Assembly (NCBI RefSeq): GCF_010672525.1
Contig: NZ_JAAHGH010000088.1
Location: 1-32,178 of the forward strand
Origin: Okeania sp. SIO2B3
Lineage (GTDB): Bacteria; Cyanobacteriota; Cyanobacteriia; Cyanobacteriales; Microcoleaceae
Direction: 5' to 3'
Length of the DNA: 32,178 nt
The first letter of the stretch is position 1; each line of letters starts with the position of its first letter. Made by a program: the position numbers and the translations under genes. Below, piece by piece: positions 4,301 to 30,559 of this stretch. Under the pieces are notes generated by a model. It had not been told where the DNA came from. It did no database searches and was given only the letters and a program-made list of their open reading frames with translations.

Positions 4301-7300
4301 TCGGCGAGAGTTTGAATTTTACGAGTGGTAATAGTACTGTTATTACTTTGGATATTAACATCCCCACTTTGCCCGGGTCCAAATGAGGCAATGTTATTGA
4401 TGGTGACACTACCATCAGCATTGAGATTAATATCTCCTCCAGTACCGTTAACAGAATAGGAGGCAATATGGTTAATATCAATATTTCCGCTGTTGCTTTC
4501 GATAGTAATATTCCCGCTGGTCTCATTGTGACTGGTAGAGAAAATATCGCCAATTTTAATGTTACCTATTTCACTACTGGCGCTAATATTACTGCTATTT
4601 TTACCTCCTATTCCACCAATACCACCCACAGTAATATTTTCTTTAGCAGAAAGAGTAATATTGCCACCCGTGCCATTGTTTGCTTTTGTTGCTAAGTTGG
4701 CGACAAAACGTTCAAAGAAGGTGGCAACTTCCAGAGAAGTAATATCTATGTCTGCTGGAAATTCATTAATAATTCCTGCAGTTGTGTCGATAGATCCGTC
4801 GTGGGATGTAATAGTAATATCTCCACCACGGTTATCTTCTCCTGCTTCTTCCCCAGAATAACTGAGAATATTAGCGGTATTAATATTATTGTTGGCAGTA
4901 ATATTCACATTTCCCGCGTCACCTGCTTCAGAGCTAGACCGTAATGTTCCACCAGTTACATCGATCGCTCCTCCTGCATTTAGGGTAATGTCTCCTCCTC
5001 TACCAATACCGAAGGAGTTCGCATCAATACTGGCAGTGGAAATATTTCCTTCTGCGTTGAGGGTGACATTTCCTGCTTCGTTGTTAGACCAAGATAATAT
5101 TTTGCTGTTGGTAGTATTGATGTCTCCGGTGGAGTTGAGGGTAATATTTCCTGATGTTTCTAAGTCGGTAACTGTGGATATTGGTTCTGTCGCTTCAATA
5201 TTTCCTGCTGCGGTAATTTCAATTTCCCCTCCACCGGAGGTTAAAACGCCTCTAATTAAATCTGTGGTATTCCCAATACTCAGTCCCTGGGTGGGAGAGT
5301 TGAAAAATACTCCGGCACTACCTGCTCTAGCTTCTAAATTATTTACTTCTAAATTAATTGGTTGTGATGATGAACCTATTCCACCACTGTTGCGAGTTTG
5401 GAAAATAGTGTTGTTTGCTCTGACTAGGGAATTTTCTGAGGCACTGAAAATATTACCTCCTTCGGCGTTAACTATTACTGTTCCAGTTGTGCGGAGGTTG
5501 CTGATGGTAATATCTCCAATTTCTCCGAGAGTACCTAACTGAATTGTAATATTTCCACGACCTGCATCTAGGATGGTATCTTCTGCCATGGTTATATTAC
5601 CTCTACCTACTTGGCGATAATTAATATCTGCATTATTGTCATTAGCGCTGAGAGTAATATTCCCATTTCCCTCAGAAGTATCTATGTCAGCATTGATATT
5701 TATATTGCGACCTGCTTTTAACTCCAAATTGGAAATTTCATCAGAATTAATAGGTTCGTTAATAGTAATATCATTGTGTGCTTGTAAACTAACTTCACCC
5801 TTTTGGTCGTTAACTTGGTCAGCATCACTATTAATACTACTGTCAGAGTCTGAGTTAAAAGCATCCTCTTCCCCACCATCAACAATAGTTATATTTTTTG
5901 CCGGGTTAATTTCACCAATTTCAATACTGCCGTTGTTAGCATTCATATTGATATTTCCATCCTCGCCATTTTCAGCAGTAGTATTTAACTCTCCCGCATT
6001 AGTATTAATATCGCTAGAGTTACTGGTGAGGTTAATATTACCTCCTCCTTCTATTCCTGATGTATTGATATTTCCAGTGTAAATTCTCTGTTCAGCATTA
6101 AAAGTAATATTTCCACCCCTACCTTCCGAAGATAAGTTGAGTAAACCCAAACTGGTGTCGATATTACCCGAAGCACTCGTAATATTAATGTCGCCCCCTT
6201 GTTGAACTCCCGCAGTATCGATGTTGCCAGTAATAACTGAATTATTTGCAGTTAGGGAAATATTGCCTGAGTTGGTGCCAGTAGAACCTGAATTTAATCT
6301 CCCACCAGTAGTATCAATAGTACCAACCGCATCTAAAGTTATCTCTCCCCCATTACCCAGAGAAGAAGCAGAATTTGAGTTTATACTACTTGTGAAAATA
6401 TTACCTCCACTTGTGAGAGTAATATCCCCTGCATCTCGGTCTCTAGAACTAGAGTCAAGGCGATCAATGCTAGTGTCAATATTTCCTCCTGCTTGAATAT
6501 TAATATTTCCTCCATTGCCACTTTCGTTAGATGAGGCAAGTACTTTTTCAGTAAAAATATTACCCTCTGCTGTCAAAGAGACATTTCCCCCATCTCCTTT
6601 AGAGGAAACAGCTTGTATTTGCTTTGCCCTAGTATCAATATTGCCCCCTGCGGTCAAAGTGACATTCCCACCTTTATTTTCATTCCCATCATCAGGGAAG
6701 TTTGGGGTTACTAATGACGAGGCAGAAATAAAGTCTGTGATTATATCTCCATTAGCTGTCATTTCAATATCTCCAGCATCCCCAGTACTATCAGAACTAA
6801 CTCCTCCGCTCGTATCAATATTACCGCCAGCTTCTAGAGTGATGTTTCCTCCACTGTTACTACTGTAAGTCCTAGAAAGAATGTTACCCGTTAAAATATT
6901 TCCACCTGCTGTAAAAATAATATTTCCAGAGTTTCCTCTTTCAGAAACAGAGTTAACAGTTCCACCTGTGGTATCTATATTACCTCCAGCTTCTAGAATA
7001 ATATTTCCTCCCTCGCCAATTGGTATGAATGAGGCAGGGTTGAAATTTTCACTAACTATTGAGTCTGAGGAAAAAGATGATATTTTACTGGTTGTAATGT
7101 CGTCTTTTGCTCTAATTTCAATATCTCCGCCGTTACCATAACTAGATGCGGAAATAACTATACCTTCGGTAGTAACTATTGAACCCGAACGACTCTCTAT
7201 TTTTATCTGACCACCAGACCCATTTCCACCAGCAAAAGTATCCACATTTGCTGTGTGAATATCTCCTTCTCCTATAAGAGTAATATTACCTCCACCTCCT

Positions 7301-10300
7301 AACTCCGAATAGGCATTAATTTTACTTTCCGTTGTATCAATTCCACCATTATTACTTTCAATAATTATATTCCCTGCATCTCCCTCACTTATCGCCGTAG
7401 AAATATCTTCGGTAACTATAATTTGACCTTCTGCCGAAAGTTGAATATCTCCTCCTTCAGTAGTTGAAATTCCCATAACATTTTCCCTCACACCACCAAT
7501 ATTTATTCCTCCCAAAACTTCAAAAAATGCTCCATTACTACCAGCCACTGCCTCTAATTTTTCTGCGTTTAAACGCAAGGGTACTTCAGATAAACCAATC
7601 CCACCATTCCCAGAAGTTCGGAATAAAATACTACCAGCATTTATCGAAGAATTTTCCGAAACACTTTCAATATTTCCCCCATTGGCATTAACCAAAACTC
7701 GACCTGTTGTAGTTAAATTTGCCAATTTTATATCTCCTACTTCTCCCAAATTTCCTAACTCAATTCTAATATTTCCACTTCCAGCCTCTAAATTTGTTCC
7801 TTCTCCTTGAATAATACTTCCTATTCCTCCATCATCACTTTCTATTACTGGTATAAAACCTCCTATATCATCTGTAGTTGGTTCACTGGCTGCCCCTAAA
7901 TTTGTTTCGTCTTCTGAAATTATATTGTCTATTGCTAAATTTGTTTCGTCTCCTAAAATTATATCTGGTATTTCCCCTGAATTATTCTCTCCTACTTCCT
8001 GACTATTCCCTTGAATAAAAATATTTCCATTCCCATCTACCGTCTTAATATCTGCATTTATATTCACACTTTCACTGGCAGTCAACCTCACATTATTCCC
8101 TGCTTCAATTCCTTCTTCAATATTCAAATCTCCATCCACATTTAACCGAATTTTTCCAGCCCTACCACCTGTATAAATCCCTGTTAATTCTCCATTTACC
8201 CCACCAATTGTTAGAGATGAAATAGCATCTATTAATACCCCAGCCTTGCCTGTAATTGCTTCTAAATTATGTACATTTAATCGCAATGGATTTTCTGATA
8301 ATCCTATCCCTCCTTGTCCACGAGTTCTTAAAAGTATGGTGTCTGCTGTAATTAAACTATTAGATGAAACTTGAGTAATATTACCACTATTAGCATTAAG
8401 TATTACTCGTCCCTCTGTGGTTAAATTAGCTAGATTTATATCTCCTATTTCACCTAAACCACCTAATCTAATAGCGATAGTTCCATTTCCAGCATTTAAT
8501 GTTGTTCCTTCTCTTTGATTAATCGAAGCTACTCCGTCACTACGATTGTTTATATTGGCATTATTATCATTGCCAAATAAAGTAATATTTCCGTTACCTG
8601 TAGATGTGTCAATATCCGCATTTATATTAATACTTCGACCAGCTTTTATCTCTACTGATGAGTCAGTTTCGATTTTTTCATTTACTGTTATATCATTGTC
8701 AGCTTGCAGAATTATTTCTCCTGATAAATCTTCAATATTTTCAGCAGAAATTGTGACGTTAGAATTTTCATCTTGAGCAAAGGGGTCTGTTGCTATTTCT
8801 GCTTCTGTTATTTCTGAATTATCAGTATTTTCAGTATTTTCAACTTCAGAATTATCCCCTGTTATTTCAGAATCAGAATCAGAATTTTCAGTTACTTCTG
8901 AATTTTCAATATTTTCAGTATTTTCAACTTCAGAATTATCCCCTGTTGTTTCCGAATTAGAATCAGAATTTTCAGTTACTTCTGAATTTTCAATATTTTC
9001 AGTATTTTCAACTTCAGAATTATCCCCTGTTGTTTCCGAATTAGAATCAGAATTTTCAGTTACTTCCGAATTGTCAGAATTTTCAGTAGATTCAACTTCA
9101 GAATTATCCCCTGTTGTTTCAGTTTCTTCTGACTCTCCCACCTCAATATTTTCCGGGTCTAATAAAATCGTTCCAGAATTTCCAGATGCAGCACTAACAT
9201 TAATACTTCCATCAAAAATCAACCGTTGTTTTCCCGAAACTTCAACAAACCCACCATCCCCAGAAAATTCACCACCTTTAGCACTAATATTTCCCCCAAA
9301 ATTAGTAATGCCATCCGACCAAACTATTACCCTTCCTCCATCACCATAACTAATAGCATCAGCCGAAATAAACGAATTTCCATCAACAAAAGTTTGCCGA
9401 GAATTACTCACTATTCCATTGCCTTGAAAATCACCTCCAATTAATATTATTCCCCCTCCATTAAAACCATTAGCATTAATATTGGCATCTATCACTGCCA
9501 CGCGATCGCCCAAAAGATTAATCTGTCCACCAACATTATATCCCCCCTGACCCCCCTTTGAAAGGGGGGGAGTTGTTGATACATCTATATTTCCCGAAGC
9601 GAAAGCATCTCCCGATACATCAGCAACTATTGTATTTGTATCTATCAAAACCACATCACCATCAGCATTAACAGTCATAGATGTAGCGTGAGTTATTTCT
9701 CCTCCCGTTAATAACTGTGGTAAAGATAGGGGAGTAAAATTAGAAATATCTGCCTCATTTTCCACTGATGACGCAACTTCCAAACTTAATAAATGTCCTG
9801 GTTGAGATATTCTCAGAGTACTACCACCTTCCACTGCAGCGATCGTAATATTACCCCCTGCTGTAGAGAGTTCCCCAGTATTAACGACCGTACCACCAAG
9901 TAAAGTCAGATTTTCACCAGGAGTTAAACTTAAATTTCCTTCATTAACTATAACGCCTGGGTTTGATACGTTAAAACGATAACCACTGGGGTTTCCGACT
10001 AAATTTGCATAATCATTTGTTCCCATGGCCTGAAACCAGAAATTATTACCGTTAAACCCAATACCAGTCGCCGTCGTAACGCTGAATGAAGCGGGTACAT
10101 TAAGACTAGCATTCTGACCGAAAATAATTCCCGCAGGGTTCATCAGAAAGAGGTTGGAGTTACCACCGATGACTTGAATTAAACCGTTAATAATAGAGGC
10201 ATTTCCCCCTGTGACTCTGCCTAAAATATTTCGGGTATCTGGGGTAGTAAGAAAATTAGCTGTTTGGCCGGAGTGGAGGTTAAATTGGTCAAAACTGTGG

Positions 10301-10482
10301 AAGAGGTTTGCCCCACTCTTGGTTCCCCCTTGAATATTAAATTGATTGCCCTGTGGCGTGACAGTTGTTCCTGTACCATCGTTAGCAGGGGTAATGGGTT
10401 GTGCTTTGGCCGGAGTTGCAACTACTATTGCTAGTAATGGCATTAGTAGAGATAAAGGATAGTTTAATCTCACAGTTTTCAT
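1303..10482 (-). CDS. Giant two-partner-secretion (filamentous haemagglutinin-like) protein with C-terminal CHAT protease domain
   Basis: 3059 residues from an ATG at 10482. Residues 1-27 form a signal peptide ending AKA-Q. Residues 28 to about 290 are a TPS secretion domain with the hallmark LMNPAGIIFG. Residues 302-314 are a palindrome-derived insertion (PPLSKGGQGG). Residues about 445-565 are an acidic Ser/Glu/Asn/Thr tract of four 28-residue repeats. Residues about 570-2430 are beta-helix repeats (GGNI/GDI...INT), including 50-residue near-identical units. Residues about 2430-2640 are a Pro/Asn/Thr/Ser linker with a 17-residue duplication and an NNP tract. The C-terminus is a CHAT (caspase-like) domain with HLATHAEFRG (H2900) and LSACRTAVG (C2943) and the normal end PYYWAGFTMVGSPW. 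TPS proteins cross the outer membrane through a TpsB/FhaC pore, absent here. The protein is probably a surface or secreted adhesin with a cysteine-protease module; its substrate is unknown. No Shine-Dalgarno sequence is obvious. Confidence 0.95.
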   Translation of the reverse strand: MKTVRLNYPLSLLMPLLAIVVATPAKAQPITPANDGTGTTVTPQGNQFNIQGGTKSGANLFHSFDQFNLHSGQTANFLTTPDTRNILGRVTGGNASIINGLIQVIGGNSNLFLMNPAGIIFGQNASLNVPASFSVTTATGIGFNGNNFWFQAMGTNDYANLVGNPSGYRFNVSNPGVIVNEGNLSLTPGENLTLLGGTVVNTGELSTAGGNITIAAVEGGSTLRISQPGHLLSLEVASSVENEADISNFTPLSLPQLLTGGEITHATSMTVNADGDVVLIDTNTIVADVSGDAFASGNIDVSTTPPLSKGGQGGYNVGGQINLLGDRVAVIDANINANGFNGGGIILIGGDFQGNGIVSNSRQTFVDGNSFISADAISYGDGGRVIVWSDGITNFGGNISAKGGEFSGDGGFVEVSGKQRLIFDGSINVSAASGNSGTILLDPENIEVGESEETETTGDNSEVESTENSDNSEVTENSDSNSETTGDNSEVENTENIENSEVTENSDSNSETTGDNSEVENTENIENSEVTENSDSDSEITGDNSEVENTENTDNSEITEAEIATDPFAQDENSNVTISAENIEDLSGEIILQADNDITVNEKIETDSSVEIKAGRSININADIDTSTGNGNITLFGNDNNANINNRSDGVASINQREGTTLNAGNGTIAIRLGGLGEIGDINLANLTTEGRVILNANSGNITQVSSNSLITADTILLRTRGQGGIGLSENPLRLNVHNLEAITGKAGVLIDAISSLTIGGVNGELTGIYTGGRAGKIRLNVDGDLNIEEGIEAGNNVRLTASESVNINADIKTVDGNGNIFIQGNSQEVGENNSGEIPDIILGDETNLAIDNIISEDETNLGAASEPTTDDIGGFIPVIESDDGGIGSIIQGEGTNLEAGSGNIRIELGNLGEVGDIKLANLTTTGRVLVNANGGNIESVSENSSINAGSILFRTSGNGGIGLSEVPLRLNAEKLEAVAGSNGAFFEVLGGINIGGVRENVMGISTTEGGDIQLSAEGQIIVTEDISTAISEGDAGNIIIESNNGGIDTTESKINAYSELGGGGNITLIGEGDIHTANVDTFAGGNGSGGQIKIESRSGSIVTTEGIVISASSYGNGGDIEIRAKDDITTSKISSFSSDSIVSENFNPASFIPIGEGGNIILEAGGNIDTTGGTVNSVSERGNSGNIIFTAGGNILTGNILSRTYSSNSGGNITLEAGGNIDTSGGVSSDSTGDAGDIEMTANGDIITDFISASSLVTPNFPDDGNENKGGNVTLTAGGNIDTRAKQIQAVSSKGDGGNVSLTAEGNIFTEKVLASSNESGNGGNINIQAGGNIDTSIDRLDSSSRDRDAGDITLTSGGNIFTSSINSNSASSLGNGGEITLDAVGTIDTTGGRLNSGSTGTNSGNISLTANNSVITGNIDTAGVQQGGDINITSASGNIDTSLGLLNLSSEGRGGNITFNAEQRIYTGNINTSGIEGGGNINLTSNSSDINTNAGELNTTAENGEDGNINMNANNGSIEIGEINPAKNITIVDGGEEDAFNSDSDSSINSDADQVNDQKGEVSLQAHNDITINEPINSDEISNLELKAGRNININADIDTSEGNGNITLSANDNNADINYRQVGRGNITMAEDTILDAGRGNITIQLGTLGEIGDITISNLRTTGTVIVNAEGGNIFSASENSLVRANNTIFQTRNSGGIGSSSQPINLEVNNLEARAGSAGVFFNSPTQGLSIGNTTDLIRGVLTSGGGEIEITAAGNIEATEPISTVTDLETSGNITLNSTGDINTTNSKILSWSNNEAGNVTLNAEGNISTASIDANSFGIGRGGDITLNAGGAIDVTGGTLRSSSEAGDAGNVNITANNNINTANILSYSGEEAGEDNRGGDITITSHDGSIDTTAGIINEFPADIDITSLEVATFFERFVANLATKANNGTGGNITLSAKENITVGGIGGIGGKNSSNISASSEIGNIKIGDIFSTSHNETSGNITIESNSGNIDINHIASYSVNGTGGDINLNADGSVTINNIASFGPGQSGDVNIQSNNSTITTRKIQTLADNGSSGNIRLNTYNFQGDINTANIQSIGDRSSGEVEVIAADGSITTQNIESLSNSGNSENITVEAGEDIDTEDINSSGGENSGDIEVSSDNGEVNTGNIESSGNSGDSGNIDVNAEGDINTENISTYGNNNSGDISVESNNGSVNTNDVVTEAENGDSGDIDIAARYGINTENISSIGGENSGDISVNSQAGSVNTNNIETIAEAGNSGDIDIAARYGINTENISSIGGENSGDISVNSQEGSVNTNNIETIAEAGNSGDINIGARGDINTGNISSIGGENSGNISVNSQAGSVNTNNITTQAEIGTAGDIDISARNNINTGNITSTAPQGSGNINLTTEVGQINTGEILTDTGKINLNQPNNNISSAVENNSTSRIPTSPPSTINNTPTPTIINPTTQISENSPPTPTIINPTTQISENSPPTLTNNLTPPSTTLTNNPSPITNYSQSPIVNNNQISTSTNTNPSTINNNSNPIIPTSAINRNSRENPANISGTQTSNITNFSRPTTIQNTIQSPQNNNETLISTNPNNSISSNNTNNPNNPNNPNNPNNPNNPNNPNNPQPNSSQINQQLQSQRLQLPQLNLTPTNPLTIDISTSQMILALEKNRIDEYSNYLGENFDQKLLSTKNVREILVDMHHQTGKKSAVIYVKVHQDQLQLILFTPDGQSILKTIYQVNREKLWEVAIQFYLDITDSKKRKNHNYLPTAKKLYNWLISPISTELEAANIDTLLFSMDAGFRLLPLAALHDGKQFLIEKYNISLIPSVSLINSKYNSLKNTKLLAMGASKFSNKPPLPAVPVELKAITKNSQQGNIFLNEEFTRKNLINQRQNYPYPIIHLATHAEFRGSNTSKSYIQLWNDKLHLHQMRDLKWNNPEVELLVLSACRTAVGDKNSELGFAGLAIATGVKSALASLWLVNDEGTLGLMTEFYSNLGNVSIKSEALREAQIAMLKGKVVIENGILKVSGGRGEMPLPPELAQMNQKNFSHPYYWAGFTMVGSPW
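2621..2692. repeat. 9-bp tandem repeat GGGTTATTA inside the CHAT gene
   Basis: About eight units of GGGTTATTA, grading into GGGTTATTG. On the minus (coding) strand they are in frame and encode Asn-Asn-Pro repeats, about residues 2598-2621, in the linker before the CHAT domain. As a 9-bp unit it can change copy number without a frameshift. Confidence 0.9.
3031..3132. repeat. 51-bp direct duplication in the linker of the CHAT protein
   Basis: The block starting TGTTGGGGGT at 3031 recurs at 3082 almost unchanged. It encodes two copies of a 17-residue unit containing TIINPTTQISENSPP. It is in frame and sits in the flexible linker. Confidence 0.85.
3421..4020. repeat. 150-bp (50-residue) tandem repeats of the beta-helix region
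   Basis: The blocks at 3421, 3571 and 3721 are nearly identical at exactly 150-bp spacing, and a diverged fourth block starts at 3871. Each encodes a 50-residue unit with INTENISSIGGENSGDISV and SVNTNNIETIAEAGNSGDI. The near identity of the first three against the divergence of the rest suggests recent duplication or gene conversion. Confidence 0.85.
8841..9176. repeat. 84-bp tandem repeats encoding an acidic low-complexity tract
   Basis: The string CAACTTCAGAATTATCCCCT starts at 8841, 8925, 9009 and 9093, an exact 84-bp period. Each unit encodes 28 residues rich in Glu, Ser, Asn and Thr (for example TTGDNSEVENTEN). The tract separates the N-terminal secretion part from the main beta-helix region. 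Confidence 0.9.
9541..9572. repeat. Palindromic repeat inserted in frame (PPLSKGGQGG-type)
   Basis: CCCCCCTTTGAAAGGGGGG forms a palindrome in the AT-rich coding sequence. On the coding strand it reads TTPPLSKGGQGGYN between ordinary beta-helix sequence. From memory, the peptide PPLSKGGQGG recurs in unrelated cyanobacterial proteins, as expected for a dispersed palindrome that can insert without closing the frame. Confidence 0.8.
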
Positions 10483-13176: not shown

Positions 13177-14364
13177 ATGTTAACCAAAATTAAAGATTTA
13201 ACAGCTACCCTCGCCCCCCGTATGATTGAAATTCGTCGTCATATTCACTCTCACCCAGAATTAAGTGGCCAAGAGTACCAAACGGCTGCTTATGTTGCAG
13301 GTGTGTTGTCTTCCTGTGGTCTTCATGTACGAGAGTCTATAGGTAAAACTGGTGTTCTGGGAGAACTCAAAGTTAATAGTAATAATCAATGGTTGGCTAT
13401 TCGTACCGATATGGATGCTTTGCCGATTAAAGAATGTACTAATTTAGATTTTGCCTCCCGTAATACTGGCATTATGCACGCTTGTGGTCACGATGTCCAT
13501 ACAACTGTAGGACTAGGGGCGGCAATGGTATTATCTGAATTGGGAGAACCCTTACCAGGTAATGTTCGGTTTCTGTTTCAACCAGCAGAGGAAATTGCCC
13601 AAGGTGCAAATTGGATGATTGAAGATGGGGCGCTTGAGGATGTACAGGGGATTTTAGGAGTCCATGTCTTCCCAACTATTCCAGCAGGTTCGGTGGGTAT
13701 TCGTCACGGAGTGCTAACTGCTGCTGCTGATGATTTGGAACTGACAATTATTGGGGAGTCTGGTCATGGTGCCCGTCCCCATGAAGCTATAGATGCAATT
13801 TGGATTGCTTCTCAGGTAATTACTAATTTACAGCAGGCCATTAGTAGAACTCATAATCCTTTAAGACCTGTAGTGTTAACAATTGGTAAGATTAGTGGCG
13901 GAAGAGCGCCAAATGTGATATCTGACCAAGTAAAAATGTGGGGAACTGTGCGATCGCTTCATCCAGATACCCATCAGGTTTTACCTGCATGGATTGAAAA
14001 TATTGTGGCTAATATTTGTGGTTCTTATGGCGCTAAGTATGAACTAAATTATCGTCAGGGAGTACCATCGGTGCAAAATGACCCAGCATTGACTCAGTTG
14101 GTCGAGTCTGTTTCTTTGGAAGCTTGGGGGAGCGATCGGGTTTGTATTTTACCTGAGCCTTCCCTCGGTGCGGAAGACTTTTCTATGTATCTGAAGAAAG
14201 TTCCAGGTATGATGTTTCGTTTGGGAGTGGGACACAAAGACAAACCTAACTATCCTCTGCATCATCCTCAGTTTGAGGTCGATGAATCTGCTATTGTCAC
14301 TTGTGTGGTTACTTTGGCTTATGCTGCTTATAAATATTGGCATAATCGCCATTTAGGCCATTAA
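13177..14364 (+). CDS. M20-family metallo-amidohydrolase (N-acyl-amino-acid/hippurate hydrolase type)
   Basis: 395 residues, ATG at 13177. Family members hydrolyse N-acyl amino acids or similar amides in the cytoplasm using a dinuclear metal centre. Expected ligands are visible: MHACGHDVHT (C103, H105), QPAEE (E138 catalytic base, E139 ligand), GVHVFP (H163) and LHHPQFEVDE (H362). The lid/dimerisation domain starts near residue 185, with the SGHGARPHEAIDAI motif. The Cys-x-His motif and total length point to the M20D subgroup (hippurate hydrolase, IAA-amino-acid hydrolase, HipO/AmhX-like) rather than allantoate amidohydrolase or ArgE. It is a single plus-strand gene between repeat-filled gaps, with no partner genes to reveal the substrate. 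There is no strong ribosome-binding site. The protein looks complete and intact. Confidence 0.93.
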   Translation: MLTKIKDLTATLAPRMIEIRRHIHSHPELSGQEYQTAAYVAGVLSSCGLHVRESIGKTGVLGELKVNSNNQWLAIRTDMDALPIKECTNLDFASRNTGIMHACGHDVHTTVGLGAAMVLSELGEPLPGNVRFLFQPAEEIAQGANWMIEDGALEDVQGILGVHVFPTIPAGSVGIRHGVLTAAADDLELTIIGESGHGARPHEAIDAIWIASQVITNLQQAISRTHNPLRPVVLTIGKISGGRAPNVISDQVKMWGTVRSLHPDTHQVLPAWIENIVANICGSYGAKYELNYRQGVPSVQNDPALTQLVESVSLEAWGSDRVCILPEPSLGAEDFSMYLKKVPGMMFRLGVGHKDKPNYPLHHPQFEVDESAIVTCVVTLAYAAYKYWHNRHLGH

Positions 14365-20250: not shown

Positions 20251-20355
20251 GTTGGGGTTTGAGTCCCCATCCAGTTTTTCCTTATTTATTCTTCCTTATT
20301 TATTCTTCCTTCTTTCTTCTTCTTTCTTCCTTCTTCCTTCTTCCTTCTTCCTTCT
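20251..20355. repeat. GTTTGAGTCCCCATCC block plus TTCTTCC heptamer tract
   Basis: GGTTTGAGTCCCCATCC followed by a long tract of TTATTCTTCC, TTCTTTC and TTCTTCC units. The same block and tract form the 3' end of the gene at 16426-17094. The tract touches the stop codon of the cupin gene. Confidence 0.85.
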
Positions 20356-20798
20356 TAAATACAACTTGAACGAGAAAGAACTTGCATATCTTCTTCGTCT
20401 AAATCTACTGGCATTCCACTACGAATTAGTTCGGCAAAGTCTTCATTTGGCACCATAATACATAAAGTATAGAGACGAGTTAAGCCAGTATTTTCTATGA
20501 CATGAATCCCTGTTGGTGGTACTAGAATACTATCACCAGCACGAATATTAACAGATTTCCCATCACATATTGCCCTTCCTTCTCCTTTAATAATAAAGAA
20601 CATTTCTACCGCTAAATTATGTCGATTTGGAGGAGTTTTTCCCCCCACATCAAAAATTTCTAAACATACAGTCAAAGAAGCATTTGCAATTACGGGATCA
20701 AAAATAATTGCTAATCGATTACTATCATTGGGACTAATACGATATGCTTGATAATCTTGGGGAGACTTAAGGACTGGAATCATGCATTGAGTAATCAT
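20355..20798 (-). CDS. Single-domain cupin protein
   Basis: 147 residues, ATG at 20798 (a second ATG at codon 6 is possible). Small cupins are beta-barrel proteins that often bind one metal and act as isomerases, dioxygenases or ligand sensors. Motif 1 is GGKTPPNRHNLAVEMFFIIK, with H60 and E65, but the usual second histidine position holds Leu62. Motif 2 is PPTGIHVIENTG with H99. So the metal site is incomplete in the classic sense. There is no DNA-binding domain. The C-terminal tail (NEDFAELIRSGMPVDLDEED) is conserved-looking and acidic. The stop codon lies at the edge of a heptamer tract. It sits 208 bp downstream of the isochorismatase-like gene on the same strand, so a shared transcript is plausible. 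Substrate unknown. Confidence 0.85.
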   Translation of the reverse strand: MITQCMIPVLKSPQDYQAYRISPNDSNRLAIIFDPVIANASLTVCLEIFDVGGKTPPNRHNLAVEMFFIIKGEGRAICDGKSVNIRAGDSILVPPTGIHVIENTGLTRLYTLCIMVPNEDFAELIRSGMPVDLDEEDMQVLSRSSCI

Positions 20799-21006: not shown

Positions 21007-21777
21007 TCAATTAATAGCCTCTAAAATAGCATGAGAATTTGTGACAAACCCAAAACATTGTTTCACATTATAAATAGTAGCTTGCCAACAATATTCAGGG
21101 GAAGTAGTGGCAGTGCAGTCTGAAACTAAAATGCAGTCATAACCAAGGAAATTTGCATCTTGTAATGTTGCCATTACACATTGATCTGCATTCACTCCTG
21201 CAAATAAGAGAGTTGTTTTGCCCATATTTCGCAGGATGCTATCAAGGGGAGTATCCCAAAACCCACTCATCCTATATTTACTCACGCGAATATCTCCTGC
21301 TTGTTGCTCCAACTCATCCACAACTGCTGCTGCCCAACTTCCTTCTATAAGTACGGGGGCGTTATTTTTGGGTAGTGGGTCGCCTAAACCTATACCTTTC
21401 CCAGTAGGGTTATAAACATGGCGTAACCCAGCGCTGATATTTAGTAAGTCGGAACGGTTTCCCCAGTTTAACCAAATTATCGGGACGTTTTGCGATCGCA
21501 ATTGTGGTAAGAAATTTATTAGTGGTTGAATGGGAGACCGTGCAGGTGTTACATCTACACCAATATGAGCTAACCAACCATCGGGGTGACAGAAGTCATT
21601 TTGCATATCTATAATTAGAATTGCTGTTTTGGCTAAATCTAATTTAATGCTTTTGTTTTCTGTTTTGATGACAATGGGTTTAGCAGGAAGAGGAGGACGA
21701 GTAATATCTGCTGTTGTTTCATCAACTTCCCAAGCATTAGGTGGTATACCTAGAGTTTCAAGAGATAAATTTTGCAT
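21007..21777 (-). CDS. Isochorismatase-like cysteine hydrolase
   Basis: 256 residues, ATG at 21777. The fold is that of isochorismatase, nicotinamidase, N-carbamoylsarcosine amidase, ureidoacrylate amidohydrolase (RutB) and biuret hydrolase. The amidohydrolase triad is present: D57 in LIIDMQNDFCH, K167 in VSKYRMSGF and C200 in AGVNADQCVMAT; the cis-peptide region precedes the Cys. Presence of the Cys argues for an amide or ureide hydrolase rather than an isochorismatase. An N-terminal extension of about 48 residues precedes the core, and WGNRSDLLNISAGLRHVYNP is a substrate-loop-like insertion. It lies 1 kb downstream of the NCS1-permease kinase and upstream of the cupin, all on the minus strand, so a role in breaking down an imported nitrogen compound is possible. 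No ribosome-binding site stands out. Confidence 0.9.
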   Translation of the reverse strand: MQNLSLETLGIPPNAWEVDETTADITRPPLPAKPIVIKTENKSIKLDLAKTAILIIDMQNDFCHPDGWLAHIGVDVTPARSPIQPLINFLPQLRSQNVPIIWLNWGNRSDLLNISAGLRHVYNPTGKGIGLGDPLPKNNAPVLIEGSWAAAVVDELEQQAGDIRVSKYRMSGFWDTPLDSILRNMGKTTLLFAGVNADQCVMATLQDANFLGYDCILVSDCTATTSPEYCWQATIYNVKQCFGFVTNSHAILEAIN

Positions 21778-22784: not shown

Positions 22785-25697
22785 TTACTGCTTGATTGGA
22801 ATCTGAATGATAAACTCTACACCATTATTTGGTGTGGAAATACAGAAAAGTTTACCCTGATGTTTTTCCACAATAATCTGATAACTAACAGATAGTCCTA
22901 AACCTGTTCCTTTACCTATTGGTTTAGTTGTAAAAAAGGGATCAAATAATTTATTTATTATCTCCGGTTTAATACCAATACCATTATCTGCAATAGAAAT
23001 TTCTACCCAATTATGCTCTAAAACTTTAGTACGAATTTGAATGATGCCAGAGTAATCTTGAATATTTAAAGAAGTTGGCTTTTGATTGTATTCATTTATG
23101 GAGTCAATGGAATTATTAATAATATTAATTAATACTTGATTAAGTTGACCAGGATAGCAATTAATGAAAGGAAGTTGAGCATAATTTTTAATAACTTCAA
23201 TAGCAGAACTATTAGATTGAGATTTTAATCGGTTGTTGAGAATTAATAAAGTACTATCAATACCTTCGTGAATATCAACTGTTTTTAATTCTGATTCATC
23301 AAGGCGGGAAAAGTTGCGTAAAGATTGAACTATTTGACGAATGCGAGTTGCTCCTACTGTCATTGATGAAATTATTTTAGATAAATCTTCTTTCAAGAAT
23401 TCTAAATCGATTTCCTCAATATATTCTTCAATTTCTACTTTTGGTTCTGGATAATGTTGTTGATAGAGTTTGACTAAGGTTAGTAATTGTTTAGTATATT
23501 CAGATGTAAAGTCAAGATTACCATAAATGAAACTCACAGGATTATTAATTTCATGGGCAACGCCTCCTACTAATTGCCCCAAACTAGACATTTTTTCTGT
23601 TTGAATTAACTGAGTTTCTTTTTGTTTTAATTCTTCCAAAGTTTGTTGAAGCTGTTGAGTTTGTTCTTTTAATTTAGTTTTCGACTGTCGCAGGGAATTT
23701 TCTACTTCTTGGCGCTGTTTAATTTCTTGTTCCAGTTGTAAATTTTGAGAGTTAAGTTCTTCTAAGGCTAAATTTCTACTTTCTTCAGTCAATACTAACC
23801 ACCAACTTCCTATGCCAATTAATAACAGTAGAGGCAGATATAATTTTACTAGGGTTATTAGTAATGACTGTGAATTATTCCCTAAATATTGAGATATATC
23901 AAGATAATAAATGACTCCAAATATTAATGCTACTAACCCAGAAATAAATAGGAAAATACCTAAAAATTTAACCACTCTTAATCCTAATTGTGGGGAAAAT
24001 TTACTAGAGATAATTTTCCGAGCAATGGTAAGTAACGGTTTTTCAGTTATCGGAGTTAATGCTGTGGTAGTTTCTTTGCAGCGGTCATAACAATGGGAAT
24101 CTAAGCTACAACATAAAGAACAAATCGAACCTTGATAAACAGGACAGTATGCCATGTCCTCCTGTTCATACTTCTGATTACAAATACAGCATTCCACTGT
24201 GTCAGAAAGATTAATTTTTTTATATTGATTTTCTCTAGCAATATAGTATTTACCTCTGGTAATAATGGCAATTATGGGAGCAAGAATAAATGCTAAAACC
24301 AAGGCAATAAAACCACAATAAGCTTGAGCAACAGAGCCAAATATTCCTAAAAAAGCAGCCATTGATACTGCTGAAGCAATCAGCATTGAACCAAAACCAA
24401 CAGGATTAATATTATGTAGATAAGCTCGTTTAAATTCAATGTAAGAAGGGCTAATTCCTAACGGCTTATTAATTACAAGATCGGCAACTAATGCTCCTAT
24501 CCAAGCAATGGCTACATTAGAATATAATCCTAATACTGCTTCTAAAGTAGCAAATACATTTAACTCCATTAAAACTAGAGCGATCGCTACATTAAAAATC
24601 AGCCAAACAACACGACCAGGATGATTATGAGTTAATCGAGAAAAGAAGTTTGACCAAGCTAAAGAACCTGCATAAGCGTTAGTAACGTTAATTTTTATCT
24701 GAGAAATAATTACAAATAGAGTTCCTATTATTAAGACAATTTTTGGGTCATCAAATATCTCAGTAAATCCTATTAAATACATTTGTATTGGCTGAGTAGC
24801 TTTAGCAAAACTAACTCCATGACTAACAGCAATAGAAGCTAAAAATGCGCCTCCCAATTCTTTAGCTACACCAATAATTATCCAACCAGGTCCGGCTAAA
24901 ATCATCGCTAACCACCATTTAATCTGATTATTTTTTTGTTTATCTGGCAGAAAGCGGAGATAATCTACCTGTTCGCCAATTTGAGGAATTAAAGAAAAAG
25001 AAACTGTTGCTGCCGCTCCAAATAAAAGTGGATTAAATTCTGCACCACTGACCGATCTACCTGCAAAATTAAACCAATTTGATAAAGCATTTGGCTCTTT
25101 ATAAAGAATAAAAATATAGGGAGATATCATTAAACTTAACCAGATTGGTTGAGTCCAAATTTGCAGTTGATTAATTACAGTTATCCCAAAAAATACAAGG
25201 GGAATAATTATTATGGAACAGACTAAATAGCCAAGGTATAAAGGTAGGTGAAAATATAACTCTAGAGCTTGAGCCATAATTGCTGCTTCTAGGGCAAAAA
25301 ATATAAAGGTAAAAGAGGCATAAATTAAAGAAGTAATTGTGGAACCAATATAACCAAAACCTGCTCCTCTGGTCAGCAAATCCATATCAATATTATATTT
25401 AGATGCGTAATAAGATATAGGTAAGCTAGTCAGAAAAATTATTATCCCTACAGTTAAAATTGCCCAGAAAGAATTAGCAAAACCATAACTAATAGCAATT
25501 GAACCACCAATAGCTTCTAAAGCCAAAAAAGAAGTTCCACCAATAGCAGTATTTGCTACTTGAAATTCTGACCATTTCCTAAAAGATTTAGGAGCAAAAC
25601 GTAAGGCATAGTCTTCTAATGTTTCTGTTGCTACCCAGGAGTTATAATCTCGCCTAACTTTCTGAATTTTTTTATTTGGGATTGTTTGATTTTTCAT
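22785..25697 (-). CDS. NCS1-family permease fused to a cysteine cluster and a sensor histidine kinase
   Basis: 970 residues from the ATG at 25697 (a TTG three codons upstream is possible). Residues 1-485 are an NCS1 (CodB/cytosine-purine-allantoin type) transporter of about 12 membrane helices: WSEFQVANTAIGGTSFLALE, IDMDLLTRGAGFGYIGS, NPLLFGAAATVSFSLIPQIG and NVTNAYAGSLAWSNFF. Residues 503-540 hold nine cysteines (503, 504, 506, 518, 526, 529, 530, 536, 540) in a CxxC-like, probably metal-binding cluster. Two more membrane helices (575-600, 612-637) and a coiled coil (640-705) lead to a kinase: H-box GGVAHEINNP (H715), N-box LINIINNSIDS, G1 DNGIGI, F FDPFFTT and G2 GKGTGLGLS, all intact. By analogy with transporter-kinases such as CbrA it probably senses its substrate or flux and phosphorylates a distant regulator. 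No partner regulator is in the window. Confidence 0.93.
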   Translation of the reverse strand: MKNQTIPNKKIQKVRRDYNSWVATETLEDYALRFAPKSFRKWSEFQVANTAIGGTSFLALEAIGGSIAISYGFANSFWAILTVGIIIFLTSLPISYYASKYNIDMDLLTRGAGFGYIGSTITSLIYASFTFIFFALEAAIMAQALELYFHLPLYLGYLVCSIIIIPLVFFGITVINQLQIWTQPIWLSLMISPYIFILYKEPNALSNWFNFAGRSVSGAEFNPLLFGAAATVSFSLIPQIGEQVDYLRFLPDKQKNNQIKWWLAMILAGPGWIIIGVAKELGGAFLASIAVSHGVSFAKATQPIQMYLIGFTEIFDDPKIVLIIGTLFVIISQIKINVTNAYAGSLAWSNFFSRLTHNHPGRVVWLIFNVAIALVLMELNVFATLEAVLGLYSNVAIAWIGALVADLVINKPLGISPSYIEFKRAYLHNINPVGFGSMLIASAVSMAAFLGIFGSVAQAYCGFIALVLAFILAPIIAIITRGKYYIARENQYKKINLSDTVECCICNQKYEQEDMAYCPVYQGSICSLCCSLDSHCYDRCKETTTALTPITEKPLLTIARKIISSKFSPQLGLRVVKFLGIFLFISGLVALIFGVIYYLDISQYLGNNSQSLLITLVKLYLPLLLLIGIGSWWLVLTEESRNLALEELNSQNLQLEQEIKQRQEVENSLRQSKTKLKEQTQQLQQTLEELKQKETQLIQTEKMSSLGQLVGGVAHEINNPVSFIYGNLDFTSEYTKQLLTLVKLYQQHYPEPKVEIEEYIEEIDLEFLKEDLSKIISSMTVGATRIRQIVQSLRNFSRLDESELKTVDIHEGIDSTLLILNNRLKSQSNSSAIEVIKNYAQLPFINCYPGQLNQVLINIINNSIDSINEYNQKPTSLNIQDYSGIIQIRTKVLEHNWVEISIADNGIGIKPEIINKLFDPFFTTKPIGKGTGLGLSVSYQIIVEKHQGKLFCISTPNNGVEFIIQIPIKQ

Positions 25698-25765
25698 CTC
25701 TGGCAATGCTTGAAAATTTAGCTTTCAAATTAATTTTTTTGATACTCTGAGTTCAAAGTATATAT

Positions 25766-26089: not shown

Positions 26090-26136
26090 CAACAATTAAT
26101 AATTAATAATTAATAATTGTTAATTGTTAATTGTTG
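26090..26136. repeat. TTAATAA and TTGTTAA heptamer tracts at a gene end
   Basis: Four units of a TTAATAA-type heptamer pass directly into three units of a TTGTTAA-type heptamer. The stop codon of the kinase gene at 26120 lies inside this tract, so its last residues (STINN) are repeat-encoded. Confidence 0.85.
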
Positions 26137-27910
26137 AAGATACTACTTGATTAATTTTCTGCCTAATAGGAATCTGAATTATAAACTCTGCTCCCTTCCC
26201 TAGTTGAGAATAACACAATAATTTTCCGCCATGTTTTTCCACAACAATTTGATAACTAATAGATAATCCTAATCCAGTTCCTTTTCCTGAAGATTTAGTT
26301 GTAAAGAAAGAATCAAATAATTTTTTGCTAACTTCTTCAGTCATACCTAAACCATTATCTGCAATTGAAATTACTACCCACTCTTTATTTAAAATTTTAG
26401 TACAAACTTTAATTTGACTCGGATTTTTCCTGACTTCTTCTGGGGTGCGCTGTTCATTATATTCATCCAACGCATCAATAGCATTACTCAAAATATTCAT
26501 CAATACCTGATGAAGTTGACCAGCATAAAAATCAACTAATGGTAATTCTTGATATTCTTTTATAACTCTAATTTCTGGGGAAGAAGTTGTTGCTTTAATC
26601 CGGCTATCTAAAAGCATCAATGTACTGTCTATTGCTTCATGAACATCAACTTGTTTAAATTCGGCTTTTTCAAACCGGGAAAAGTTACGCATTGACTTAA
26701 TTATTTCATAAATTCTTTCTGTACCTATCTCCATAGACCTGATAATTTCATTGAGGTCTTTCTTAATAAAATTCAGGTCAATTTCTGCTATTTTAATTTG
26801 AATTTCTGGTGTAGGATGAGGAAATTTATGCTGATACATCTCTAGCAATTCTAGTATGTCTTGAAAATATTCTTGAGCTGGAGCAATATTTCCACGAATA
26901 TAGTTAATTGGATTGTTAATTTCATGGGCAACACCAGCTACCATTTGTCCTAAGCTAGACATTTTTTCTGTGTGTAGTAATTGAGCATGGGTTGTCTGTA
27001 GTTTTTCTAGGGTTTTTTGCTGTTCGGCAATTGCTTTTTCTAAACGGTCAGATTGAATTAATGTGGATTTTCCTGATACATCTAATAACTGATGTAATGT
27101 GGCATTTTCTGATTGAAGCTGTTCAATAATTTTATCTTTATATTTTAGTTCGCTCTGATTAATTGTTCGATCTTTACCTTGGCTAGATGAGAAAATTTCA
27201 CCTTGGTCAAAGGGCAAAAGTGCTATCTTAACACTTAGTGCTAATGGTTTTAATAAATCAATAGTCTCTCTTGGTACTTTTACTTTTAAAAACATTAAAA
27301 CTACAAACATATTTCCTGAAGGTAATAAACCTCCAAATCCGATTACAGATTTAATATTAAAAGGAATTACAAATGATTTTTGTGCTGGAATATAAGGGCT
27401 ACCCAAGGCATCAGCTACATAAAATACGTTGTACATTTTTTGCTCTAAATCAGCCAATAAATTTAGGTCTGTTTCTACCACTTGACTAACTTCTAATCCT
27501 AATTGTTGAATTAGCCTTGATATCATAGGAATTTTAGCGATCGCTGCTTTATTTGCTAAAGGAATTGCTTTGTGTCCAGAAGATTTTTGTCGTAAATTCC
27601 ATTCTGGTTTTTCCCCAGCAGTACTCAGCAAGGTTAAGCATTTTAAATCAGGAGTGACTGATTGATTATTTAATAATGTAGAAGCATATTCTTGTAGTTC
27701 GTAGCTGAGTTTTTTATATGAAATAGTCTGAAACATACGGATTAGCGCACAGGATTTTTCTTTAATATCTTTACTAATTAGATTTTCATAAAGATACTTA
27801 ATAATCCGATTGCTTACCTCTTCTGTTGTATGAGCATCTTTTCCTAATTGGCGTAAAACTAGCCCACATTCAGACATATCTCTGAGACCAAATTGAGTTA
27901 AATCATACAT
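26120..27910 (-). CDS. Soluble sensor histidine kinase with an unnamed N-terminal sensor domain
   Basis: 596 residues, ATG at 27910. There are no membrane segments. Residues 1-235 form a globular domain beginning MYDLTQFGLRDMSECGLVLR and ending LKPLALSVKIALLPF; I remember similar N-termini in other cyanobacterial kinases but know no established name. The second half (GFGGLLPSGNMFVVLMFLKV) has a GAF-like alternation. A coiled coil covers about 255-315. The kinase core is intact: H-box MVAGVAHEINNP (H329), N-box LMNILSNAIDAL, G1 DNGLGM, F FDSFFTT and G2 GKGTGLGLS. The phospho-transfer and ATP domains are closely similar to those of the genes on both sides, suggesting local duplication. Ligand and target regulator are unknown. 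Confidence 0.9.
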   Translation of the reverse strand: MYDLTQFGLRDMSECGLVLRQLGKDAHTTEEVSNRIIKYLYENLISKDIKEKSCALIRMFQTISYKKLSYELQEYASTLLNNQSVTPDLKCLTLLSTAGEKPEWNLRQKSSGHKAIPLANKAAIAKIPMISRLIQQLGLEVSQVVETDLNLLADLEQKMYNVFYVADALGSPYIPAQKSFVIPFNIKSVIGFGGLLPSGNMFVVLMFLKVKVPRETIDLLKPLALSVKIALLPFDQGEIFSSSQGKDRTINQSELKYKDKIIEQLQSENATLHQLLDVSGKSTLIQSDRLEKAIAEQQKTLEKLQTTHAQLLHTEKMSSLGQMVAGVAHEINNPINYIRGNIAPAQEYFQDILELLEMYQHKFPHPTPEIQIKIAEIDLNFIKKDLNEIIRSMEIGTERIYEIIKSMRNFSRFEKAEFKQVDVHEAIDSTLMLLDSRIKATTSSPEIRVIKEYQELPLVDFYAGQLHQVLMNILSNAIDALDEYNEQRTPEEVRKNPSQIKVCTKILNKEWVVISIADNGLGMTEEVSKKLFDSFFTTKSSGKGTGLGLSISYQIVVEKHGGKLLCYSQLGKGAEFIIQIPIRQKINQVVSSTINN

Positions 27911-28721: not shown

Positions 28722-30077
28722 CTAACTTTTTTCTCTTTTTTGATTTGGTAATTTAATCACAAATTCTGTTCCTTTTTCAGAAAGAGAATTACATTCCAAT
28801 TCTCCTCCATGTTTATTGACTATAATTAAGTAACTCATAGATAATCCTAAGTTGCTGATTTTATTGTAAGTATTGGTATTTTCAAAAGTTTCATATAGTT
28901 GATCTTTGAGATTTTCCAGTATTCCCAGTCCATTGTTAACTATTCTAATTTCTACTCCATAGGATTCAATAATTGAAGTAGTAATAGTAATCCGATTTGG
29001 ATTTTGCAGAATTTCTTGATAAGTTTTAAATTTTTTATAGTTATATTCTTCTAAAGAATCAATTGCATTGACTAACAAATTCATAAAAACTTGATTTAAG
29101 GTATTTGGATAACAATTAATCTGAGGTAAATTTCCATAATTTTTGATGATTTCAATTGCAGGACGCTGATGATTAGCTTTTAGTCGATGCTGTAAAATTG
29201 TCAGAGTATTATCTATGCCTTCATTAATATCAAAAGCTACTTTTGAGGTACTATCTGCTCTAGCAAAACTTCGCAATGATACGCTAATTTCGCTGATGCG
29301 AGTGCTTGCTGTTTTTATGGAAAATAAGATTTTTGGTAGCTCTTCAATCAGAAAATCTATATCCATGTCTTCCGCGTCTTTTTCAATTATTAGACCAGGC
29401 TCAGGAAATTGTTTTTGATATAACTTAATGTGATTAATAATTGCTGTGAGATATGTTTCTGCTAAATTAACATTACCGACAACTATACTAACTGGATTAT
29501 TTAACTCATGGGCAATACCAGCAACTAATGCCCCAATGTTAGACATTTTTTCACTTTGAATTAGTTGCAATTGAGCTTCTTTAAGTTCTTCTAAATATTG
29601 AGAAAGTTCTGCAGTTCTTGACTGTACTTTATCTTCCAGAACGGATGCAGATTTTTGCAATTCTATTTCTGCTTTAGTCCGTTCTTTGATCTCTTTTTGT
29701 AAGCGTATATGTATATTTATTCTAGATAACAGTTCTTCTGCTTTAAACGGTTTAACAATATAGTCTACAGCTCCTAAATTTAAACCTTTGATTTTTTCAT
29801 CAGATTCAGAAAGTGAAGTCATAAAAATAATAGGAATATTTTTAGTTCTTTCTGAAGTTTGCAAGTAACTACAAACTTCAAAACCATCTATTCCTGGCAT
29901 AATTATATCTAGTAAAATCAAATCTGGTAATACATTTTTTACTGTCTCAATTGCAGTTTCCCCATCCTCTACTACGATGACATTAAAACCAGAAAATTTT
30001 AATAAATTCAACATTAAATTGGCATTTCGATATTCATTATCGACTACCATAATTGTGTGTTCTTTTTTTTGATTCAT
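28722..30077 (-). CDS. Receiver-histidine kinase hybrid with a degenerate ATP-binding domain
   Basis: 451 residues from the ATG at 30077, chosen because AAAGGAG lies 6 bp upstream on the minus strand and the receiver fold starts at once (HTIMVVDNE). The frame stays open 58 codons further up to 30251, but that part is AT-rich and resembles no domain. Residues 8-125 are a receiver: D13, phospho-acceptor D57 in LILLDIIMPG, T87 and K109. A coiled coil (125-178) leads to H-box LVAGIAHELNNP (H190) and an intact N-box FMNLLVNAIDSL. The rest of the ATPase is damaged: G1 is VNNGLGI (Asp to Asn), the F box is YETFENT, and G2 is NKISNLGLSM, lacking the GxGxG glycines. It may be a phosphorelay scaffold or pseudokinase. 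Two intact paralogues lie downstream. Confidence 0.88.
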   Translation of the reverse strand: MNQKKEHTIMVVDNEYRNANLMLNLLKFSGFNVIVVEDGETAIETVKNVLPDLILLDIIMPGIDGFEVCSYLQTSERTKNIPIIFMTSLSESDEKIKGLNLGAVDYIVKPFKAEELLSRINIHIRLQKEIKERTKAEIELQKSASVLEDKVQSRTAELSQYLEELKEAQLQLIQSEKMSNIGALVAGIAHELNNPVSIVVGNVNLAETYLTAIINHIKLYQKQFPEPGLIIEKDAEDMDIDFLIEELPKILFSIKTASTRISEISVSLRSFARADSTSKVAFDINEGIDNTLTILQHRLKANHQRPAIEIIKNYGNLPQINCYPNTLNQVFMNLLVNAIDSLEEYNYKKFKTYQEILQNPNRITITTSIIESYGVEIRIVNNGLGILENLKDQLYETFENTNTYNKISNLGLSMSYLIIVNKHGGELECNSLSEKGTEFVIKLPNQKREKS

Positions 30078-30559
30078 GGAAACTCCTTTGATTTTTTTAT
30101 TAGTTAAAACTAAAGCAGTTTTCGACTTTATTAAGTGCAAAATTTTATGGGTATTGCCAATAATAAATAAGGAATATAAATCAAGATTTAACTGTACCCA
30201 ATCATTCTCAAAAAATCTGTAATATTTTTGACTATCTAAATGTATTTTCACAAAGATAACTAGATTTATTTATGGCAAAATCAAAGTAAATATCAGATAA
30301 TTTATTACTACTTTCACCCAGCCGATATGATTTTCCGTTCTACTACTTATACTCATAAAACAATTAATAACTCAAATAAATTTTTTATTGTATTATTAAT
30401 CATGTTAACATTTTTATTAAAGTCAGAGTAGTTCTTTATCAAAACTTTTCATAACAGTAGAATTACCATTATATCACTTTTTGTATTGAGATAGACACAA
30501 TGCTGTAAAAATCTCAACTATGACTACTAAAAACCCGAATATCTAGGAGTATTAACCCA
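30078..30559. other. Divergent intergenic region between the kinase and glycosyltransferase genes
   Basis: AT-rich. It must hold the promoters of both divergent genes, but I see no confident -35/-10 pair. A weak inverted pair, TTGAGAT and ATCTCAA, is at about 30486-30520. The only strong signal is TAGGAGT at 30544-30550, the ribosome-binding site of the downstream gene. Confidence 0.45.

Follow-up and report, generated by a model that had tools for sequence, protein, structure and literature searches.

The transporter–kinase fusions described in the literature that we examined use either SLC5 or Amt transporters. In the SLC5/STAC kinases CbrA, CrbS and RpuS, a secondary transporter lies N-terminal to a histidine kinase, STAC and PAS domains occupy the middle of the chain, and the kinases are often hybrid, have an adjacent regulator gene and control the use of small nutrients. 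The anammox protein Ks-Amt5 joins an Amt ammonium transporter to a histidine kinase, with a nitrogen-nutrient transporter module acting as the kinase receptor (PMC12918730). Here we analysed a window of DNA, namely the whole 32,178-nucleotide stretch of contig NZ_JAAHGH010000088.1 from the cyanobacterium Okeania sp. SIO2B3, in which a gene at 22785..25706 on the minus strand encodes, in a single open reading frame (ORF) of 973 amino acids (aa) starting from TTG, what reads as an NCS1-related transporter, a cysteine-rich tail, two membrane helices and a complete histidine kinase in one chain. An internal ATG at 25697, the start picked for a 96%-identical Okeania copy (L044), would give a 970-aa product (22785..25697, minus strand). 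Residue numbers below follow the 973-aa TTG version and are three higher than those of an earlier annotation of the window, hereafter the original prediction.

The family of this protein shares with the SLC5/STAC kinases the order of transporter and kinase, the frequent hybrid form, the adjacent regulator gene and, as proposed below, control of small-nutrient use. It differs from them in using an NCS1 branch in place of SLC5, in carrying an eight-cysteine module and two transmembrane helices where those kinases carry STAC and PAS, and in its linkage to amide and urea genes. The Amt fold is unrelated to the NCS1-type fold, and Ks-Amt5 senses ammonium whereas amides are the ligands proposed here. 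No NCS1-branch transporter fused to a kinase was found described in the literature searched, and the NCS1 branch would be the third transporter type in such fusions. We consider it fairly likely that the family represents transceptor-type sensor kinases built on a distinct NCS1 branch for short-chain amides and urea, and such a kinase would probably tell the cell that small-amide nitrogen sources are outside. Judged from sequence, the transporter type of this transceptor family is new, and its ligand class, its partners and its regulon are predictable.

Architecture and transporter kinship

The transporter domain comprises aa 14-490 (24237..25667), the cysteine module aa 503-546 (24069..24200), and the two extra hydrophobic helices about aa 580-636 (23799..23969), all on the minus strand; a hydropathy scan placed the helices near 581-599 and 615-633, as the original prediction had proposed. 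On the same strand, HisKA (aa 709-804, 23295..23582), with the phosphoacceptor histidine H718 in an HEINNP motif, and HATPase_c (aa 854-972, 22791..23147) both scored above their Pfam cut-offs, and the window protein thus has the parts that define a histidine kinase. H718 was near-invariant in a 73-row alignment, and its column held histidine in 95 of 107 rows in another alignment that included kinase-free and cut rows. Of 140 fused relatives, 138 matched a profile made from the family's own kinase-ATPase sequences.

The NCS1 kinship of the transporter half was examined by profile–profile comparison, because Pfam and PDB sequence searches with this part matched no transporter family, PF02133 included, and so missed NCS1 in the window protein. 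Among the best 25 of the 65 NCBIfam families listed for the window protein none was NCS1, a kinase-free permease of the family (L155) had no NCBIfam match at 1e-8, and a family-only profile matched no transporter in PDB. Using hhalign with an alignment of 20 family members against 17 NCS1-type permeases from cyanobacterial genomes, a match of 94.8% probability (E 5.5e-8) over 378 columns was obtained, and five column-shuffled controls and one reversed control gave E values of 0.089-0.78. Supportively, the family HMM matched a PF02133-positive protein with 21.6 bits. An alignment containing real NCS1 members (A2), in which matches to CodB and Mhp1 arise by construction, was used solely for residue mapping. 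The transporter half can thus be assigned to a far, distinct branch of the NCS1 family, homologous over about 378 columns to permeases such as Mhp1 (2JLN) and CodB (7QOA), which carry no kinase. No Pfam transporter match pointed to an SLC5 domain and the profile similarity was to NCS1, with no direct profile comparison to SLC5 made; between transporter and kinase, no Pfam domain was found, the presence of a STAC model in Pfam being left unchecked. These results bear out the earlier claims that an NCS1 transporter and a full kinase share one chain and that this transceptor-like architecture is distinct from the SLC5 type of CbrA.

The original prediction had also described a cluster of nine cysteines, and nine indeed lie at 506-543 of the window protein. 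Eight of them, spaced C506xxC509-x11-C521-x7-C529xxC532C533-x5-C539-x3-C543, are conserved: seven were cysteine in 107 of 107 distinct relatives and C543 in 106, but the ninth, C507, was cysteine in 36 of 107. In a larger set the conserved cysteines were present in 143-144 of 148 transporter domains, the remaining 4-5 rows showing a gap or another residue. Both the tail and cysteines at these positions are absent from the canonical NCS1 proteins compared. The pattern fits two four-cysteine sites. A cysteine-rich PDZ-binding protein was returned as a match to this region (PDB, E 0.74; Pfam Cript, E 4.9) and was dropped as non-significant.

We asked whether the cluster could be the true input of the kinase, a metal or redox sensor, with the transporter domain serving as a membrane anchor; the original prediction had named metal or redox state as a possible further input. 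The conservation of eight cysteines across phyla would suit such a role, as would one locus of a Neomarinimicrobiota metagenome-assembled genome (MAG) (L083, 5501-8173), where metal-uptake genes of the ZnuA and ABC-3 types come after the transceptor gene and a REC-sigma54 regulator gene; no other locus matched these genes by similarity, metal genes beyond the L083 set not having been searched for. However, all eight cysteines are kept in seven distinct standalone permeases, kinase-free proteins of 546-598 aa whose C terminus lies no more than about 20 residues beyond the module, and more distant kinase-free relatives keep some of the positions (five in a Streptomyces standalone form, four in a Paracoccus relative). 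In addition, the transporter core is strongly conserved, with six polar or charged sites identical in 148 of 148 domains. A metal or redox input is accordingly disfavoured and we regard it as very unlikely, the zinc-uptake genes of L083 counting the other way. Because the kinase-free permeases keep all eight cysteines, the module is assigned to the transporter, and it is predicted to be a zinc-ribbon-like tail, enlarged in the clade of fused and standalone forms.

Next, the family was compared with Mhp1 at the substrate and ion sites, by alignments at about 20% identity. The Mhp1 substrate residues Q42, W117, Q121, W220 and N318 aligned with F60, F136, E140, L239 and N343, respectively; position 136 was F in 83 and L in 24 of 107 relatives, and N343 aligned with N318 in one alignment and was one position off in another. 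The sodium-site side chains of Mhp1, S312 and T313, aligned with K338 and I339. The six sites identical throughout the 148 transporter domains are E140, E245, D248, K338, N340 and N343. The Mhp1-type substrate residues are thus largely replaced, and the sodium-site side chains are replaced as well. By analogy with related transporter folds, the basic K338 at the sodium site suggests that the transporter is sodium-independent. Of the two features by which the original prediction could be judged, conservation of the cysteines and retention of NCS1 substrate-site residues, the first was found and the second, for residues of the Mhp1 type, largely was not.

The kinase-fused and standalone forms were then compared within the transporter domain, taking ORFs of at least 700 aa as fused (n=140, of which 138 match the kinase profile). 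Seven positions were near-fixed in the fused set, namely F60 (136), L63 (134), E64 (139), A141 (137), A232 (138), A346 (139) and A350 (140), whereas the seven eight-cysteine standalone forms carry Y, D, F, G, mostly G, S and S there. G141 is common to the standalone set and to more distant non-canonical relatives, and for this reason the fused state at 141 looks derived. The domain exists both in free permeases encoded next to formamidase and in the proposed kinase-fused receptors, and the two can be compared as a natural pair.

These differences bear on whether the transporter domain senses at all. The SLC5 domain of CbrA is reported not to be essential for signal perception (PMC9100948), so a fused transporter need not be a sensor, and the stimulus might here likewise be cytoplasmic. 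Near-fixed differences between fused and standalone forms in the core helices are instead a sign of an altered duty for the transporter domain itself, and we consider a cytoplasmic stimulus distinctly unlikely. A more specific proposal, which we hold to be possible rather than probable, is that in the fused clade a permease has become a receptor that detects formamide and further short amides, possibly the first of its kind for amides outside the cell. The changes at E64 in transmembrane helix (TM) 1, A141 in TM3 and A346/A350 in TM8 would have turned transport into sensing, the shared two-zinc tail would serve as the transmission joint, and the output regulators (LuxR, MarR and sigma-54 types) would have been swapped between lineages.

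Gene neighbourhoods and the candidate ligand

Genes for urea and amide uptake and hydrolysis recurred around the family. Among 65 non-cyanobacterial loci, Urt A/B/C genes were found in 35, FmdA in 20, an AmiE/AmiF-type amidase in 16 and any of these in 38, and a formamidase or amidase stood within the locus in 21; where at least 7 kb upstream was available, Urt A/B/C or amidase genes were near in 35 of 48 loci. Family models run on representatives named UrtA, UrtB, UrtC, UrtD, formamidase and aliphatic amidase. In the re-fetched cyanobacterial set (31 of 32 loci kept, L227 having no transceptor ORF), FmdA, aliphatic amidase or Urt genes accompanied the transceptor in 12 loci, and one of them (L197) has the order fmdB, fmdA, urtC, urtB, urtA, divergent kinase, regulator, aliphatic amidase, with NCBIfam scores of 675 bits for the formamidase and 712 bits for the amidase. 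The standalone forms showed the same association: FmdA is the adjacent gene for four of the seven distinct eight-cysteine permeases (L039, L071, L155 and L158), and a fifth locus (L110) holds FmdA and AmiE; L157 has no FmdA or amidase nearby, and L156 stops at the contig edge.

At the genome level, FmdA (PF03069, E at most 1e-180) was present in 30 of 40 family-bearing genomes vs. 66 of 348 others (p 1.4e-12, 388 genomes), and in 20 of 27 vs. 28 of 133 when counted by genus (p 2e-7), which is the sole control for kinship in statistics that otherwise ignore the tree.

Formamidase-urtEDCBA clusters divergent from the kinase gene were found on one Klebsiella and one Chelatococcus plasmid. The former, a conjugative plasmid of Klebsiella variicola (L186:7900-17372) and the single plasmid inspected out of 342 matching Klebsiella records, carries formamidase-urtEDCBA, the divergent transceptor and a near-consensus copy, at 13869, of the palindrome described below; given the number of matching records, the same full set may hold for many. 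By gene set alone, it resembles the UrtABC/AmiF 'UTS' locus of Klebsiella CG307, which its published report calls a urea transporter (PMC13060141); the term histidine kinase is absent from the main text of that report. In Ectopseudomonas, a hybrid kinase and a LuxR regulator are reported beside a urtABCDE operon (PMC13296017).

These neighbourhoods were used to weigh the candidate ligands. The original prediction had favoured a nucleobase, hydantoin or allantoin-like heterocycle, in which case the urt and fmd genes would merely be downstream nitrogen targets. The NCS1 kinship is consistent with that proposal, as are a RutB/biuret-hydrolase-like gene in the window and a more distant relative, L189, whose sodium-site residue is basic and whose gene adjoins hydantoinase/oxoprolinase genes. 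However, the recurrent neighbours named by family searches are those of urea and amide transport and hydrolysis together with regulators, formamidase adjoins four of seven standalone permeases, the Mhp1 stacking positions W117 and W220 are F or L here, and Q121 is replaced by E140. The informative neighbourhoods thus point to urea and short-chain amides, and a heterocyclic ligand is most doubtful.

Urea alone could also be the ligand, the formamidase genes following since the ABC importer carries both compounds. The UrtA of locus L052 passes the NCBIfam UrtA cut-off with 580 bits, and the naming of the Klebsiella CG307 locus agrees with this. Yet the UrtA of L197, the one cyanobacterial transceptor-adjacent UrtA scored, reached 426.5 bits against a cut-off of 492.75, and the 21 of 65 non-cyanobacterial loci with formamidase or amidase speak for amides as well. 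We hold urea as the only ligand to be somewhat unlikely.

Regulator genes and a shared palindrome

A REC-LuxR gene was the next gene in 43 of the 62 non-cyanobacterial loci with enough downstream DNA and, with the earliest start taken, overlapped the kinase gene in 35 loci. REC-MarR is an uncommon output type among response regulators. A REC-MarR winged-helix gene came next in 15 of 42 cyanobacterial loci, several of which are the same genome twice (L197:11946-13133 and 14 others), and it followed the transceptor in 11 of the 12 amide-linked cyanobacterial loci. Pfam confirmation of the domains covered L105 for REC-LuxR and six loci for REC-MarR. In three further cyanobacterial loci a REC protein without MarR came next, those of L206 and L217 being REC-kinase hybrids, and the next gene in L083 is of the REC-sigma54 type. 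A conserved regulator, which the original prediction had suggested looking for, was thus found in much of the family but, in either form, not at the window locus.

A blind dyad search of 18 divergent urtA-kinase regions found TACGT-N6-ACGTA in 13, and 17 of the 18 contained this or ATACG-N8-CGTAT, compared with at most 2 regions in 20 shuffles. The resulting 18-bp palindrome, ATACGTCANNTGACGTAT, had 41 matches of at least 14/16 in 67 non-cyanobacterial loci (1.24 Mb), against 0, 0 and 1 in three shuffles, which preserve base composition only, while close relatives share sites by descent. At 13/16 or better it was present in 33 of 37 urt loci. Sites stand before the transceptor/kinase, urtA, porin, AmiE and FmdA genes; in L110, a site separates the standalone permease gene from AmiE.

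In whole genomes searched with up to two mismatches, sites lay at or near the locus in five of seven proteobacterial genomes (G388, G393, G394, G566 and G450). The 5.5-Mb Collimonas genome among them (G394) had none beyond the locus, G393 had a third site elsewhere, and a backward-palindrome control gave 0 in all seven. At the same threshold, two cyanobacterial genomes gave no site (one control match) and one site (two control matches). With at most one mismatch, the palindrome occurred in 7 of 40 family-bearing genomes vs. 0 of 40 others, and five of those seven sites lay upstream of the transceptor at a distance of no more than 0.5 kb. Much of the family thus shows both urt/fmd linkage and a shared promoter element, and the analysis puts forward a candidate sensor, candidate regulators and a candidate operator for loci of amide/urea uptake.

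From these results, we propose that the NCS1-branch domain would bind a small amide (formamide-like compounds and/or urea) in the membrane, and that a conformational change would pass through the cysteine-rich, probably zinc-binding cytoplasmic tail and the two extra helices to the coiled coil and the HisKA/HATPase core, which would phosphorylate a response regulator. In proteobacteria, REC-LuxR would bind the 18-bp palindrome and turn on the kinase gene together with those for the porin, the urt ABC transporter and formamidase/amidase; REC-MarR would be the regulator in the amide-linked loci of cyanobacteria. The receptor would derive from an uptake permease, represented by the standalone form.

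Several observations weigh against this proposal. Linkage to urt or amidase genes was absent from 19 of the 31 re-fetched cyanobacterial loci (a few with short flanks) and from 10 Campylobacterota and 3 Thiotrichaceae loci, and 10 of 40 family-bearing genomes lack FmdA at the chosen cut. The palindrome was missing at 13/16 from four urt loci and at one mismatch from 33 of 40 family-bearing genomes, it was not found in the cyanobacterial urt/fmd loci or the window, and two proteobacterial genomes (G389 and G775) each have one site away from the transceptor. A common cyanobacterial operator, sought in 12 regions, did not extend beyond close relatives. The low identity behind the Mhp1 mapping, the metal-uptake genes of L083 and the CbrA precedent belong here as well. 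Moreover, urt and formamidase genes, a LuxR/MarR regulator gene and the palindrome are all missing from the window locus, and the window's genome gave a strong UrtA match and weak FmdA-family matches only.

Family distribution and the window locus

Strong matches (E < 1e-100) were obtained in 40 of 388 sampled genomes of the window's class (any match, 43), one of which (G014) has the kinase-free form only, in 52 of 398 genomes of Pseudomonadota, the phylum of a Methylomonas relative (any match, 62), and in 2 of 150 of Campylobacterota, the phylum of a Sulfurimonas relative (any match, 4). The scan of genome contigs covered the best 80 of at least 588 relatives. Among plasmids, 538 records matched at 1e-5, 526 of them over at least 80% of the query and 342 of the 538 from Klebsiella; the weakest of the matches listed were ordinary cytosine permeases. 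The annotated plasmid matches listed are mostly called 'ATP-binding protein' and otherwise 'response regulator', 'ArcB' or hybrid-kinase names, and the present analysis offers a testable annotation for proteins now often called 'ATP-binding protein' or 'ArcB'.

In the tree, the standalone forms made one clade (SH-aLRT 99) and the window copy grouped with other cyanobacterial kinase-fused forms. L160 was handled as outgroup, but the branches of L160, L189 and L187 are too long for rooting and the root is unsure. The standalone count leaves out L028 and L048, which run into a contig end, and L088, which is cut.

The ligand of the window copy rests on homology because no urt or fmd neighbours stand there; its class is deduced from the invariant site residues, and a ureido compound is possible. 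The transceptor gene is followed downstream by genes for an isochorismatase-fold amidohydrolase closest to RutB/biuret hydrolase (21007..21777, minus strand) and for a cupin-domain protein (20355..20798, minus strand), with a similar gene in Okeania L044 and L071; a CocE hydrolase gene is also in the surroundings. A second histidine kinase of 596 aa (26120..27910) and a REC + HATPase hybrid kinase of 509 aa (28722..30251), both on the minus strand, are candidates for a partner and a phosphorelay partner, respectively. The gene order of this neighbourhood recurs in Okeania L044.

A second, fragmentary transceptor copy was found in the window's genome (L159:9162-10007 and L002, contig C176); it matches residues 327-621 with an internal stop and adjoins an IS605 OrfB-type transposase gene. 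On plasmid pAMI4 of Paracoccus aminophilus, the L189 gene (4986-6614) encodes a 'cytosine permease' with Arg at the sodium-site position and a four-cysteine tail, adjoins the hydantoinase/oxoprolinase genes, and is perhaps a member of a sister transporter family with another substrate. In a Microcoleus MAG, an ordinary NCS1 permease gene (L040:13227-14513) lies directly downstream of the transceptor. A gene for a DUF3318 protein is near the standalone permease of L155 (10757-11413, Pfam match), and DUF3318-like genes were recognized by eye or clustering in L156, L157, L158, L071 and L039. Finally, an ORF of 3059 aa at 1303-10482 of the window (minus strand) has a CHAT domain at its C terminus and contains several arrays of tandem repeats, e.g. 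of 150-bp and 84-bp units.

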